DNA of 52,327 nt from Accumulibacter sp. GTDB taxonomy: Bacteria > Pseudomonadota > Gammaproteobacteria > Burkholderiales > Rhodocyclaceae. The notes under the pieces are model-generated. The model ran no database searches. It had not been told where the DNA came from and saw nothing but the letters and a program-made list of their open reading frames with translations. Of this stretch, positions 4,423 to 8,799 are shown piece by piece. A program made the translations under genes and the position numbers. Every line of letters starts with the position of its first letter. The stretch's first letter is position 1. The stretch covers positions 1 through 52,327 of the forward strand of contig JAISAZ010000053.1 in the NCBI GenBank assembly GCA_031266435.1, read 5' to 3'.

Positions 4423-4531
4423 GAATCATTCCATTCCCGGTTCATCCCTTCCTTTGTCGACTCGCCTTGCCGTACTACCTGTACTGTCTTCGGCTCGTCT
4501 TCTCGGCATGAATGAACTGGAAAAGGAATTA
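4423..4531. repeat. ~100-bp inverted-end dispersed element, copy 1
   Basis: Left end ATTCCATTCCCGGTTCAT; right end ATGAATGAACTGGAAAAGG followed by AATTA, approximately the reverse complement of the left end. The conserved core is GTCGACTCGCCTTGCCGTAC followed by CTGTACTGTC. Copies lie near 9021 and 47308, with a half copy near 37271. It sits between the convergent ppsR and diguanylate cyclase genes. The terminal TTA is the cyclase stop codon read on the minus strand. Probably a non-autonomous mobile element or REP-type unit. Confidence 0.75.
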
Positions 4532-5500
4532 GAGGAGCGAGCAGACGCGGTTTTTCCCTTTTCTTTTGGCGTCGTACATCGCCAGATCCGCGCGGTTTAT
4601 GAAGTCCTGCGGAGATTCTTCGGGCTTGAAGAGCGTGTAGCCCAGGCTCGCGGTCAGCGGCAACTGCGCGATGTGCGCATCCGCGATGTTTGTGCACAAT
4701 TTTTCAGAGATGCGCGACATCTGCTTTTCGCTCGAACGCGGAACGAGGATGACGAACTCCTCGCCGCCGTAGCGCGCGACGATGTCGTTCCGCCGCAGAC
4801 TGTTGAGCAGCAGTTCTCCGAGCGATTCGAGCACCTTGTCGCCGACGAGGTGGCCGTAGGTATCGTTGACCAGCTTGAAATCGTCGATATCGAGCATGAT
4901 CAGGGCAAGCGAGGCGCCGATCGTCTGCGCTTTCCTGATTTCGTCGAGCAGGATTTCCATGAAGGTCGTCTTGTTCAGGATTTTCGTCAATCCGTCGATC
5001 TTCGATTTTTCCTTGAAGAGTTCGAGGTTCTTGGCCATCTTCCTGTTTTCGAGCAATTGAACGCGCGCCTTGCGCAAAATGTTCGCGCGGTCGATGAATT
5101 CTTCACGCAGCAGCCGGATCAGGATCAACTGGTCGTCGCCGAAACGCACCGCCCGCGCGATCAGCGCCGTCTGTTCTTCGAGTTTTCCCTCCTCCTGCCA
5201 GATGCCCGAAGAAACGCTCCCCGCCGCCCCGCTTTTGAAGAAGGCTTCGGCCTCTTCGATGAAAAATTCCATCATCGACGAATGGTCCCAGGGCGTGGTG
5301 CAGGCGACTTCAAAATAGTCGAGCATCGCCGAGGTGTCCTCCCGCTGCACGGGGGCGTCCGTCGAGGGCGGAAAGAGGTCGTTGTAAAAATCCGGGACGT
5401 CTCCGAAAAGGACGTATTTCTTGTAATCGACGCGGCGCAATATGGCGATGTTGCTCGCGCTCAGAATGTCGTAGGCGAGTTGCTCGTTGCTATTTGGCAC
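4529..5500 (-). CDS. GGDEF diguanylate cyclase
   Basis: Makes cyclic di-GMP from two GTP; cytoplasmic. The C-terminal GGDEF domain (about residues 165-323) has the active GGEEF at 245-249. An RRND inhibitory I-site sits five residues before it, so the enzyme should be catalytic and product-inhibited. The N-terminal ~165 residues have no transmembrane segment and hold a Glu/Leu-rich helical stretch that recalls SiaD-type cyclases; this is a resemblance only. The start is GTG and overlaps the end of the GTPase gene by 11 bp, which implies translational coupling. It is the last gene of the four-gene operon and the likely output. Its stop codon lies in the end of the dispersed element. Confidence 0.9.
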   Translation of the reverse strand: MPNSNEQLAYDILSASNIAILRRVDYKKYVLFGDVPDFYNDLFPPSTDAPVQREDTSAMLDYFEVACTTPWDHSSMMEFFIEEAEAFFKSGAAGSVSSGIWQEEGKLEEQTALIARAVRFGDDQLILIRLLREEFIDRANILRKARVQLLENRKMAKNLELFKEKSKIDGLTKILNKTTFMEILLDEIRKAQTIGASLALIMLDIDDFKLVNDTYGHLVGDKVLESLGELLLNSLRRNDIVARYGGEEFVILVPRSSEKQMSRISEKLCTNIADAHIAQLPLTASLGYTLFKPEESPQDFINRADLAMYDAKRKGKNRVCSLL

Positions 5501-6005
5501 TGTTTTGCTCCCGCAGCATTTCTTCCGCCAGACTTTCGAAGGCTATATTGACGTTTTGCCCGTTTTTCGCGCTGGTACAAAAGAATTCGATATTCTTTTC
5601 GCGCAGGTCCTCAAGCGCCTCCTGCGTGATTTCCCATTCTTCCGTCGCGTCCGCCTTGTTGATGAGAAGCCGGGTCGGAACGCGGACGCCCAGAATGTTG
5701 AAAGCCAGCTCGCGCAGTTCCAGCGCGATGGCGAGCGTCTCCTTGCGGCTTCCGTCCGCGACGACGAAAAAGCCCATCGCGCCGCGCAGATACGACGAGT
5801 TGATGTCGACATAGACGTCTTTACCCTCCATGTCCCAGAGCAGGAGCGTGACTTCCGTTCCGGAAACCACGACTTCCTTTTTGCTGATTTTGACGCCGAC
5901 CGTGGAAAGGTATTTGTCTGAAAAAACGGAGTGTACGAACTGCGAGACGAGCGACGTTTTCCCTACGGAAAAGGCGCCGAGCATGCATATTTTTTTGTTG
6001 ATCAT
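5490..6005 (-). CDS. Ras/Rab-like small GTPase
   Basis: A 171-residue stand-alone GTPase of the prokaryotic Ras-like type. The G motifs are all present: P-loop GAFSVGKT (10-17), switch I Thr in STVG (about 35), WDMEG (57-61), NKAD (116-119) and SAK (145-147). The residue after DxxG is Lys, where Ras has the catalytic Gln61, so intrinsic hydrolysis may be weak and partner-dependent, as in MglA-type GTPases. No membrane anchor is seen. It lies between the OmpA-domain protein (87 bp upstream) and the cyclase (overlapping), so it plausibly relays a state from the membrane protein to c-di-GMP output. The relay is inference. Confidence 0.88.
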   Translation of the reverse strand: MINKKICMLGAFSVGKTSLVSQFVHSVFSDKYLSTVGVKISKKEVVVSGTEVTLLLWDMEGKDVYVDINSSYLRGAMGFFVVADGSRKETLAIALELRELAFNILGVRVPTRLLINKADATEEWEITQEALEDLREKNIEFFCTSAKNGQNVNIAFESLAEEMLREQNSAK

Positions 6006-6092
6006 ATAAAAAACCGGAATGCTGATTGGACGGGACGGCTCACGCGGCGGGTGTCTTGCCGGATCGATGCGGGGCGTGTTCGCGTTCCGCGC

Positions 6093-8045
6093 TTATTGGA
6101 ACAACACACGTTCCGCGTCGAATGCGGGCGGACTCGATAAATGTATACGAAATTCTATGCGTCGGCTAGCCTGATCGTCACGCGGGGCCGCAGTCTGCGG
6201 TGTTTTTTCCGGCTCTTTTCCCTCGGCGCGGTCTTCTCTCGGATGCGCCGCGCCCATGCCGTAGATCGAAATGGGCATGCTCGACCCTCGTGCGTAGAGC
6301 ATCGAGGCGACCGTACGCGCCCTCGATTGGCTGATCTCGTAATTGCGCCGGGGCGAGCCGGGGGGGTCGGCGTGCCCGTAGATCGTCAGCGACACGGCGA
6401 TGCTCATCTTTTTGGCAAGTTCTTCGAGTTCGACGAGCGTGTCGATGACGCGCGCGAACTCCGCCTGATCGGACGCGATCGGCAGGTCGCCTCCGACGGG
6501 GAATTCGATGACGGCGCTTTCGACGAGCTTCACGCGGCGGGTGATCTCTTCGGAGAGCGGGTCGCGCAAGTCGCGCATGTCGACCTGTTTGACTCCCGGC
6601 AGAAGGAGCGCCGCTTCGCGCGTGCGCGCGATCCAGGCCGCCGGCGCCGTACCTTCGAAAATCAGCACGCCGTTCGTGTCGAGACGCATGCGCACGGTCT
6701 CGGGCAAGGAAAAGCTTTGTTCGGCGCGGCGCAGGATGATCGAACGATCGTGCGAAACGAAGGGCACGAGCTTGAACGTGAAAAGCGAAGGGTCGAGGCC
6801 CTTTTCGGACAAAATCTGTTCCGGCGGGTGCGCGAGCTCGTCGCGGAAAGCGATGACCTCCCACGGCGAGCGGTCGAACAGCCCGTTGTTTTCCTGCACG
6901 TGGACGATCATCAGGCCGGGTTCCGCGCGCAGGACGGCAACCGCCTGACGGTGCGCGCGCAGGTTCTTGACATGAGCGTAATACGCGGTGCCGCCGCCCG
7001 CGCCGATACAAAGCGCGATGAAAAGAGGCAGGCACTTGCTCCAGAAGGGATGGGGTTTCGTCTCTTCCTGCACGTAGTGGGCGAGCATGCACGTTTCGAG
7101 CAGACGCGTCGCGCCGGTGAAAGGCGCGTTGTCGCCCGTAAAAGCGCTCAACTCGTCCGAGTATTCGATGAGCAGCATTTCCAGCGTTTCGCGCAATTTC
7201 TTGTGGAAGTCCGTCGGCGGTATGCCGCGCACGACGCAGGCGAGGTAGGCCATCTGCGAGTGCTCGATGTGAATCGTGAATTCGCCCATCTGGAGGGTTT
7301 CGAGGTTGTAGTCTCCTCCCCCCGTAAAACAGTCTTTGACGAAGTCCTGGATCGCGGTCAGCATCGCGGAAACCATGTCCGCGTCCTGCGCGCCGACGCC
7401 TTCATGGACGAGGTTCGACAGGACGAGCCCCGTCTCGCTATGGATGAAGAAGGCTTGCTCGACACGGTAGTCGAGCGTCCGCAAGAGGACGATTTCGCTG
7501 AAGGACTTGCCCGTCCGAAGCCCTTCCAGACGCCAGCGAAGCCCTTTCCAGGAAAAAGCCATTTCCATGCTTTTTCCGAAATCGGCCATCATCGAGCGGA
7601 AGGACTCGGCGATCGATTTGCGTATCGTCGGCCCCATCAGCGGATACAGAACATTGACGAAATCCGCTTTTCGCTTTTGCAACGACGATTGCAAAATCTC
7701 GTCTACGACGGGCTCCAACGCCGTATTCAGGCTGTCGTCGTTTTTTGAGCGCAGGAGGATCGCTTCGGAGAGGACGCCGCCGACCTTCTTCGCGTTATGG
7801 CGCGCGTCTTCGTAATTCGAACGCAACTTCTCGACGATTGCGATTTCACGGCCGAAAAGGAGCGAACGCAGGAGCGTGACTTCCTTATCCTTCGGCGCTT
7901 CGGGCATGCCCGCCCAGAAAGCGTCGTCCACGCTCTTGTCGACCGGCGCGACGGCGTCCGGCGCGGAGGCATCTCCCGCCACGGGCGGGGTCTCCTGATG
8001 GCCTCCCGGCAAGGCCGGGTCGGGCGTAAAAGGCTCGGCAGTCAT
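6093..8045 (-). CDS. inner-membrane protein with cytoplasmic domain and periplasmic OmpA domain
   Basis: Encodes 650 residues. About 335 N-terminal residues have no signal peptide and should be cytoplasmic. One transmembrane helix follows (about 337-356). The periplasmic part has a BON-like stretch (about 440-505) and a C-terminal OmpA/MotB peptidoglycan-binding domain (about 508-636), with YGHADPPGSPRRNYEISQSR and ASRRIEFRI. Within the cytoplasmic part, about 185-300 reads like a Roadblock/longin fold (VEQAFFIHSETGLVLSNLV, LACVVRG), the class that regulates MglA-like GTPases; this is tentative. It lies 22 bp after the coiled-coil gene and upstream of the Ras-like GTPase. It could link the cell wall to the GTPase. 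Confidence 0.82.
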   Translation of the reverse strand: MTAEPFTPDPALPGGHQETPPVAGDASAPDAVAPVDKSVDDAFWAGMPEAPKDKEVTLLRSLLFGREIAIVEKLRSNYEDARHNAKKVGGVLSEAILLRSKNDDSLNTALEPVVDEILQSSLQKRKADFVNVLYPLMGPTIRKSIAESFRSMMADFGKSMEMAFSWKGLRWRLEGLRTGKSFSEIVLLRTLDYRVEQAFFIHSETGLVLSNLVHEGVGAQDADMVSAMLTAIQDFVKDCFTGGGDYNLETLQMGEFTIHIEHSQMAYLACVVRGIPPTDFHKKLRETLEMLLIEYSDELSAFTGDNAPFTGATRLLETCMLAHYVQEETKPHPFWSKCLPLFIALCIGAGGGTAYYAHVKNLRAHRQAVAVLRAEPGLMIVHVQENNGLFDRSPWEVIAFRDELAHPPEQILSEKGLDPSLFTFKLVPFVSHDRSIILRRAEQSFSLPETVRMRLDTNGVLIFEGTAPAAWIARTREAALLLPGVKQVDMRDLRDPLSEEITRRVKLVESAVIEFPVGGDLPIASDQAEFARVIDTLVELEELAKKMSIAVSLTIYGHADPPGSPRRNYEISQSRARTVASMLYARGSSMPISIYGMGAAHPREDRAEGKEPEKTPQTAAPRDDQASRRIEFRIHLSSPPAFDAERVLFQ

Positions 8046-8067
8046 CGCAAAGCCGCGTTACCCGGAC

Positions 8068-8799
8068 TCAGGCGACCGGACTCGCGTCCCCGGACGCGTT
8101 GTCCTGGCCGATCTGGAGCGGCGCGTCCTCGTCGAATTTGACGAGGATGTCGTTGCCCTGCCATTGGGCGAGCTTGATCGCCACTTCGGAGAGGAGGCCG
8201 GACAGGACGGAACGCGTCGTCATGTCGCTGCGAATCTGCGTCGAAATGACCGAAAGCGCGTTGATGGCGTCCTTGTATTTTTCGTCGACCTTGTCCGAAA
8301 GACGGCTGTTTTCCGTCATCAACAACTGCCGCAGGTCGCGCTCGACCGTGTCGAGCGTGCCCGACAGCGCCGTCATCCTGCGCTCGAATGCCTCTTCGCA
8401 GGCCGTGAGATCCTTGGAGATTCGCGTCAGCGCTTCCTCGCGCTCGCGGCCCTCGCGCGTTACCGCTTCTTCGCGTTCGCGCTTTTCATTCCTGAACGCC
8501 TCGTCGCGCTCGCGTTTTTCGTTCTGGAGCGCGTCGGCGTTTTCGCGCTGCGCGTCCTTCATCGCGGCGGCGCGCTCGGTTTTTTCTTCCTGCAGGCGAT
8601 GAATCAGCGTGGAAACTTCGCTCTTCATGAAATTTTCCAGCGATTCAAAGCGGGTCTTCATGCTTTCGCGCAGGTCGGACAATTCGCGCAGGAAACGTTC
8701 TTCCTGCCGAACGAAGCGCTGTTCCATATCTTTGAGCTGCGTGCCCAGCAAGAGGTCGCGCACTTGTTCTATCGAATTCGTTTCGCCTGGATTCACCAT
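8068..8799 (-). CDS. coiled-coil cytoplasmic protein, first gene of GTPase operon
   Basis: Encodes 243 residues, mostly charged helical coiled coil (about 20-200). A heptad-like run of Glu/Arg repeats (about 85-125, units such as NEKRERDEAF and EGREREEAL) is preceded by LLLGTQLKDMEQRFVRQEER. There is no signal peptide or membrane segment, so it is probably a cytoplasmic scaffold or adaptor. Start ATG with GGAGAAAAAAC upstream; it heads the minus-strand operon with the OmpA-domain protein, GTPase and diguanylate cyclase. No family was recognised with certainty. Confidence 0.75.
   Translation of the reverse strand: MVNPGETNSIEQVRDLLLGTQLKDMEQRFVRQEERFLRELSDLRESMKTRFESLENFMKSEVSTLIHRLQEEKTERAAAMKDAQRENADALQNEKRERDEAFRNEKREREEAVTREGREREEALTRISKDLTACEEAFERRMTALSGTLDTVERDLRQLLMTENSRLSDKVDEKYKDAINALSVISTQIRSDMTTRSVLSGLLSEVAIKLAQWQGNDILVKFDEDAPLQIGQDNASGDASPVA

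Follow-up and report, generated by a model that had tools for sequence, protein, structure and literature searches.

The window analyzed here, a 52,327-nucleotide contig of an Accumulibacter sp. genome (2.66 Mb, 121 contigs, about 96 percent complete), carries a four-gene module of the Group 1 Rup type, which encodes a coiled-coil protein, a membrane protein with a periplasmic OmpA domain, a Rab-like small GTPase, and a diguanylate cyclase. The assignment follows from the GTPase motifs, the absence of the G3 Gln, and the neighboring genes, compared with the 2014 description of such modules (Wuichet and Sogaard-Andersen, 2014; PMC4316618). The chances seem about even that the four proteins form a G-protein circuit anchored in the membrane and the wall, with cyclic di-GMP (c-di-GMP) as its output. 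The cytoplasmic domain of the OmpA protein is predicted to have a longin/roadblock-type fold.

A sequence-only reading of the window had described four adjacent minus-strand genes, and their coordinates (Table 1) and spacings (a 22-bp gap, an 87-bp gap, and an 11-bp overlap) proved exact. Its protein assignments also hold. The Glu/Arg-rich coiled coil has 33 Glu and 26 Arg among 243 residues and matches no Pfam or NCBIfam family above the curated cut-off; a weak echo of its N-terminal motif occurs in the OmpA protein (LRSLLFGRE; hhalign probability 28, E = 6e-4). In the latter, residues 542-611 form the OmpA domain (PF00691, E = 3e-8, 34.3 bits against a cut-off of 27.2), and the most hydrophobic 19-residue window on the Kyte-Doolittle scale begins at residue 338. 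The motif GHADPPG...SQSRA, which starts at residue 557, supplies the conserved Asp and Arg that bind peptidoglycan in this family. The GTPase is a single-domain protein of 171 residues with Ras/small_GTP matches in Pfam and NCBIfam (Pfam Ras PF00071, E = 3.6e-29), all five G motifs (GAFSVGKT, TVGVKI, WDMEG, NKAD, and TSAK), and the G3 Asp. By sequence, the solved structures nearest to it are those of Rabs (Rab25, E = 1.4e-20), and it is the sole match to its search in this genome at E 0.001. The cyclase matches GGDEF (PF00990, E = 5.5e-42) and has an intact active site, GGEEF at 245, with the I-site RRND at 236, five residues upstream; four GGDEF matches occur in this genome, the module cyclase among them. 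Three points escaped that reading: the catalytic Gln of the GTPase is replaced by Lys, the outputs vary among relatives, and the cassette has probably moved between phyla.

The conservation of the module was assessed in 168 loci, namely the window, 47 from a GTPase scan of public genomes, and 120 from later profile scans; removal of five repeats (L169, L201, L202, L213, and L247) left 163. With the center genomes counted and the group names taken, by inference, from each center genome, the GTPase profile matched 34 of 369 genomes in the window's class (E 1e-20). At E 1e-30, genomes with a match numbered 42 of 299 in the window's own phylum; for the phyla that contain the Gastranaerophilales, Desulfovibrio, and Helicobacteraceae center genomes, the figures were 31 of 244, 9 of 247, and 4 of 200, respectively. 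The GTPase occurs in 7 of the 28 genomes of the window's genus, its own among them. At least 4.5 kb of sequence lies upstream of the GTPase in 126 of the 163 loci. The cytoplasmic domain of the OmpA protein is encoded upstream, on the same strand and within 7 kb, in 114 of these, and 111 also have the coiled coil farther upstream, as judged by longin and coiled-coil profiles built partly from the surveyed loci themselves. Even among the 37 short-flank loci, 23 show the upstream domain. The order coiled coil, longin/OmpA protein, GTPase, and output on one strand recurs in most surveyed loci of several groups. Since all loci were found through the GTPase, these figures give the rate at which the GTPase keeps its neighbors, not how often the neighbors occur alone. 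The earlier proposal of a single conserved module is thus upheld by the 111 of 126 loci that keep these three genes together, and the four-gene arrangement is not due to chance.

Several clusters depart from this layout in detail. In L033, L045, L046, and L047, which are deltaproteobacterial clusters from termite metagenome-assembled genomes (MAGs), an extra stretch between the longin/OmpA gene and the GTPase resembles only the transmembrane and periplasmic OmpA part (query residues about 353-583). A longer spacer separates the coiled-coil and OmpA genes in many related clusters. In the Gastranaerophilales copy (L018:6053-9470), the genes for the OmpA protein and the cyclase are each interrupted by a single in-frame stop, marking either pseudogenes or MAG errors.

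The sequence-only reading had also proposed that the OmpA protein regulates the GTPase. This survives in spirit, and it gains weight because the cytoplasmic domain is predicted to be of the longin/roadblock type. The prediction comes from one AlphaFold model built from 38 sequences, on which both Foldseek and VIA were run. The model has the longin order of two strands, a helix, three strands, and two helices, and its fold matches include SNARE longins, coat adaptors, and several GTPase regulators or platforms, namely Mon1-Ccz1 (acting with Ypt7), TRAPP (Rabs), Fuzzy-Inturned (Rab23), MglB (MglA), and Ragulator. At the sequence level, relatives weakly match Fuz_longin_1 (11 of 99, best E = 0.0047) and Intu_longin_1 (2 of 99), a PDB sequence search returns the TRAPP subunit BET5 at E = 0.14, and an iterated longin profile matches 142 of the 168 loci, duplicates counted.

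Several observations weigh against a GTPase-regulating longin domain. The single model has a mean predicted local distance difference test score (pLDDT) of 71.5 and a predicted template modeling score (pTM) of 0.50 over the whole modeled stretch. The window copy has no significant sequence match to longin families, and two designed proteins score above BET5 in the PDB search. The top three VIA matches are the SNARE longins Sec22b, Ykt6, and Vamp7, and coat adaptors match too. Moreover, 12 of the 126 long-flank loci have no same-strand longin gene upstream (L012, L051, L054, L134, L147, L176, L179, L195, L200, L206, L207, and L255). In L206, an inverted arrangement, the GTPase lies on the strand opposite to that of the coiled coil, longin/OmpA protein, and output domain. 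An analysis of coupled residues in the GTPase and the longin domain (116 pairs, effective number 68.5) was rejected as evidence for want of a phylogeny-aware null. Coupling exceeded 60 shuffled pairings, and switch residues made up 0.40 of the top 30 against a background of 0.25; the null retains shared descent, because clusters merged 113 of the 116 rows. Both the uninformative coupling test and the lack of significant longin similarity in the window copy would suit a generic profilin-like fold match, with an OmpA protein that does not bind the GTPase and genes co-inherited for some other reason, an explanation that we regard as very improbable.

The fold alone does not specify a guanine nucleotide exchange factor (GEF), because SNARE longins lead its VIA matches and coat adaptors match too; it is compatible with action as a GEF, a platform, or a GTPase-activating protein (GAP). 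We rate it as possible, if rather unlikely, that the longin domain is a docking or dimerization platform or part of a GAP, while the PAS-like domain of the cyclase or another protein controls the nucleotide. Such a role would agree with SNARE longins as the best fold matches, with the missing catalytic Gln of the GTPase, and with the roadblock protein MglB, a GAP for MglA, and roadblock/longin proteins that serve as platforms (PMC3521125; PMC10933270). It agrees less well with the Rab GEF parts among the matches (Mon1-Ccz1, TRAPP, and Fuzzy-Inturned), and no other GEF candidate was seen within the module. This alternative overlaps with the circuit favored here, and the odds of the two do not sum to one.

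The GTPase has Lys62 after DxxG (DMEGKD) in place of the usual catalytic Gln, and its hydrolysis of GTP should therefore need help in trans. A Gln supplied in trans by the output protein was proposed in 2014 (PMC4316618). Among relatives, position 62 is K, R, E, H, S, A, N, or another residue, and it is Gln in a large deltaproteobacterial clade of termite MAGs and in some cyanobacterial loci. At the output position that we assume to be the invariant N-terminal Gln of the 2014 description, the window has Arg143, and it has a Gln at 102. Two observations run counter to a trans Gln: this Arg, and clade B cyanobacterial systems such as L175 and L185, which seem to carry Gln in both GTPase and output. 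Across the 67 systems of clade A, Gln occurs at output position 143 in 26, at output position 102 in 15, and at GTPase position 62 in 25. Exactly one of the three positions is Gln in 64 of the 67 systems, compared with a mean of 30.2 and a maximum of 46 in 2000 shuffles; L018 and L204 have none, and L052 has two. A glutamine relay was not adopted and is kept as a lead, since the positions were chosen after the first loci, the pattern amounts to two to three changes on the tree, and independent-pair tests cannot reach significance. Fresh loci followed the pattern in five of five cases, of which L247 repeats L026; they were no risky test, because the remaining four are all of the ordinary Q143 type.

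Outputs of clade A share an N-terminal domain and differ in their catalytic part. The N-terminal domain of the window cyclase, predicted to have a PAS-like fold, is common to HD-GYP, GGDEF-EAL, and a few kinase outputs. Overall, the relatives carry cyclases, hydrolases, kinases, and one transcription activator, including HD-GYP, class III cyclase, SpoIIE, and sigma-54 types. The class III nucleotide cyclase outputs may come mostly from family f222 in the window's phylum (L250-L283), which accounts for 30 of the 42 matching genomes (1.2-3.1 Mb, three with two matches). The I-site is retained in 30 of the 31 outputs with an intact GG(D/E)EF motif. In the next-nearest complete cassette, that of the Accumulibacter MAG Pc512_bin132 (L009:3734-4705), the cyclase active site has degenerated to SDEEF and the RRND I-site is kept, as happens in some c-di-GMP receptors. 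This I-site retention, in L009 as in the intact cyclases, could be taken to mean that the GTPase is controlled by c-di-GMP or by a ligand bound to the PAS-like domain, through I-site binding or catalysis in trans, and that the real output is the GTPase or the wall protein, with a role in polarity or envelope positioning, for example. We consider this improbable, as so varied a set of outputs suits effectors better than sensors.

In the favored circuit, which proteins touch, whether the wall is sensed, which way control runs, and where the catalytic residue comes from are all inferred, as follows. The periplasmic OmpA domain most likely tethers its protein to peptidoglycan, and one transmembrane helix would join it to a cytoplasmic helical stalk and the longin domain. 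The latter probably dimerizes and has help from the coiled-coil protein; its most likely role is to bind the Rab-like GTPase and set its nucleotide state, as an exchange factor or a platform. Once loaded with GTP, the GTPase would most likely dock on the cyclase at its PAS-like N-terminal domain and alter cyclase activity through the signaling helix, such that the state of the envelope could set local c-di-GMP. The output protein would also be the best candidate for trans help in GTP hydrolysis, consistent with the 2014 proposal. The module parts are probably each other's partners, because the genome has one such GTPase, no match to Robl_LC7, and four GGDEF matches. The Robl_LC7 search (PF03259) found no match in this genome at E 0.001, and the same search matched 3 of 14 control genomes.

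The nearest named relatives are the "Accumulibacter sp." MAGs Gx485_bin129 and Pc512_bin132, with GTPases 91 and 78 percent identical to that of the window. These prefixes denote the termites Glyptotermes (Gx485) and Prorhinotermes canalifrons (Pc512), as Roe453 denotes Roisinitermes and Kf353 Kalotermes (PMC11707648), and other bins with the same or similar prefixes would likewise be termite-gut MAGs. The window, too, is taken to belong to a gut bacterium. A tree of 87 systems was built from the GTPase and the cytoplasmic part of the OmpA protein with residue 62 masked, by a quick method with a simple model and support from the Shimodaira-Hasegawa-like approximate likelihood-ratio test (SH-aLRT) only. 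It places the window and L009 in a 12-member set (starred support of 98) with two Desulfovibrio, two Desulfobulbus, four Helicobacteraceae, one Gastranaerophilales, and one further deltaproteobacterial MAG; the branching order inside the set is not well supported. Another four copies from the genus of the window group together in their own clade outside this set (support 100). The simplest reading is that the cassette was transferred between phyla, and probably it was. Wrong binning could explain such a grouping for single short MAG contigs, but the window contig also bears a recA close to that of its genus. The cassette adjoins ppsR and ppsA in the window, L008, and L009, and recA in the window and G024; because these neighborhoods are shared, a single acquisition at one site in the window's sub-lineage is likely. 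The GTPase gene has a G+C content of 53.5 percent, against 61.5 in the window and 61.1 in the OmpA gene, which fits a foreign origin and is no proof of it.

Table 1. Positions of the module genes, domains, and key residues in the window.
Feature	Position	Strand	Basis
Coiled-coil protein, cytoplasmic, first gene of the module, 243 residues	8068..8799	-	Open reading frame (ORF); family profile
Coiled-coil N-terminal motif IEQVRDLLLGTQ, conserved as QvRdiLFGaQ	8737..8772	-	Consensus of 88 coiled-coil proteins
Longin-transmembrane-OmpA protein, 650 residues, putative wall-anchored GTPase regulator	6093..8045	-	ORF and domains
Cytoplasmic helical region preceding the longin domain	7503..7886	-	Helices of the AlphaFold model, pLDDT about 48-73
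Predicted longin domain, residues 182-325 (the 2014 "domain of unknown function")	7071..7502	-	
Single transmembrane segment, residues about 338-356	6978..7034	-	Top Kyte-Doolittle 19-residue window
Periplasmic OmpA (peptidoglycan-binding) domain	6213..6422	-	PF00691
Rup (Rab-like) small GTPase, 171 residues	5490..6005	-	PF00071
Lys62 codon, place of the catalytic Gln of Ras/Rab (DMEGKD)	5820..5822	-	Alignment and table
Diguanylate cyclase, output protein, 323 residues, GTG start	4529..5500	-	PF00990
Cyclase N-terminal PAS-like domain, candidate GTPase receiver	5105..5500	-	Common to clade A outputs
Gln102 codon (SGIWQE), candidate substitute for the missing trans Gln	5195..5197	-	Residue tables; putative role
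Arg143 codon; Gln here in 26 of 67 clade A outputs (LQ..RE)	5072..5074	-	
I-site RRND (236-239) and active-site GGEEF (245-249)	4754..4795	-	

The longin reading supplies a concrete candidate regulator for the GTPase from the unexplained central protein of the 2014 module, and it turns the neighborhood into a testable circuit of wall anchor, longin, GTPase, PAS-like receiver, and enzyme. If the circuit is real, a Ras-type input would reach c-di-GMP and, via the differing outputs, several other bacterial signaling currencies. More tentatively, and with the chances leaning against it, Group 1 Rup modules could be bacterial Rab-longin pairs, in which a wall-coupled transmembrane longin exchange factor and a GTPase drive interchangeable outputs (c-di-GMP synthesis or breakdown, cAMP/cGMP, or kinases) and which passed from phylum to phylum in termite guts. 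In that case, bacteria would widely use Rab-longin GEF coupling as an envelope sensor, beyond its known eukaryotic and Asgard setting. Group 1 Rup GTPases are very similar to Rab, Ran, Ras, and Rho (PMC4316618), and longins are argued to descend from roadblock domains and to have emerged at about the time when eukaryotes arose (PMC3521125); a longin partner for a Rab-like GTPase in many bacteria therefore bears directly on how Rab-GEF pairs originated.

Among known systems, the closest is the Group 1 Rup set itself, described as a coiled coil, an unknown domain joined through a transmembrane segment to OmpA, a GTPase, and a signaling output that includes c-di-GMP enzymes (PMC4316618). The sequence-only reading's statement that no described pathway has this four-part order is therefore incorrect. 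No member had been characterized at that time, and a search of mostly non-subscription literature turned up no experimental study of such a module that was recognizable by title and abstract. The window shares with this set a Rab/Ras-like GTPase of less than 240 residues without the G3 Gln, the two upstream genes, the output gene, and the absence of coupling to MglB. It differs in its stand-alone GGDEF output, rather than GGDEF-EAL or a kinase, and in an Arg where other outputs of the same N-terminal family carry Gln. Further differences are the longin prediction for the 2014 domain and the output range, which extends from the typical c-di-GMP enzymes and kinases of that description to HD-GYP, class III cyclase, SpoIIE, and sigma-54. 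Like MglA-MglB, the module pairs a bacterial small GTPase with an adjoining protein of the roadblock/longin group, but MglA lacks the G3 Asp (PMC4316618), and the partner in the window, predicted to have longin order, is joined to a membrane-spanning OmpA protein. Mon1-Ccz1, TRAPP, and Fuzzy-Inturned resemble it in having longin domains that act with Rab GTPases, in their fold matches, and in weak Pfam matches to the FUZ/MON1 and INTU/CCZ1 longins, whereas they are eukaryotic multi-subunit complexes. To our knowledge, none of them has an OmpA domain or a second-messenger enzyme. The actinobacterial conservons (CvnA-D) are likewise four-gene operons with a GTPase, a roadblock protein, and a signaling enzyme, but their GTPase is of the MglA type, their MglB-type protein is separate, and their enzyme is a histidine kinase, with no OmpA anchor or cyclase described in the accessible text (PMC4316618). 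Set against these systems, the four-part order is not new; the new points, as far as searched, are the predicted longin domain, the variety of outputs, and the probable movement between phyla.
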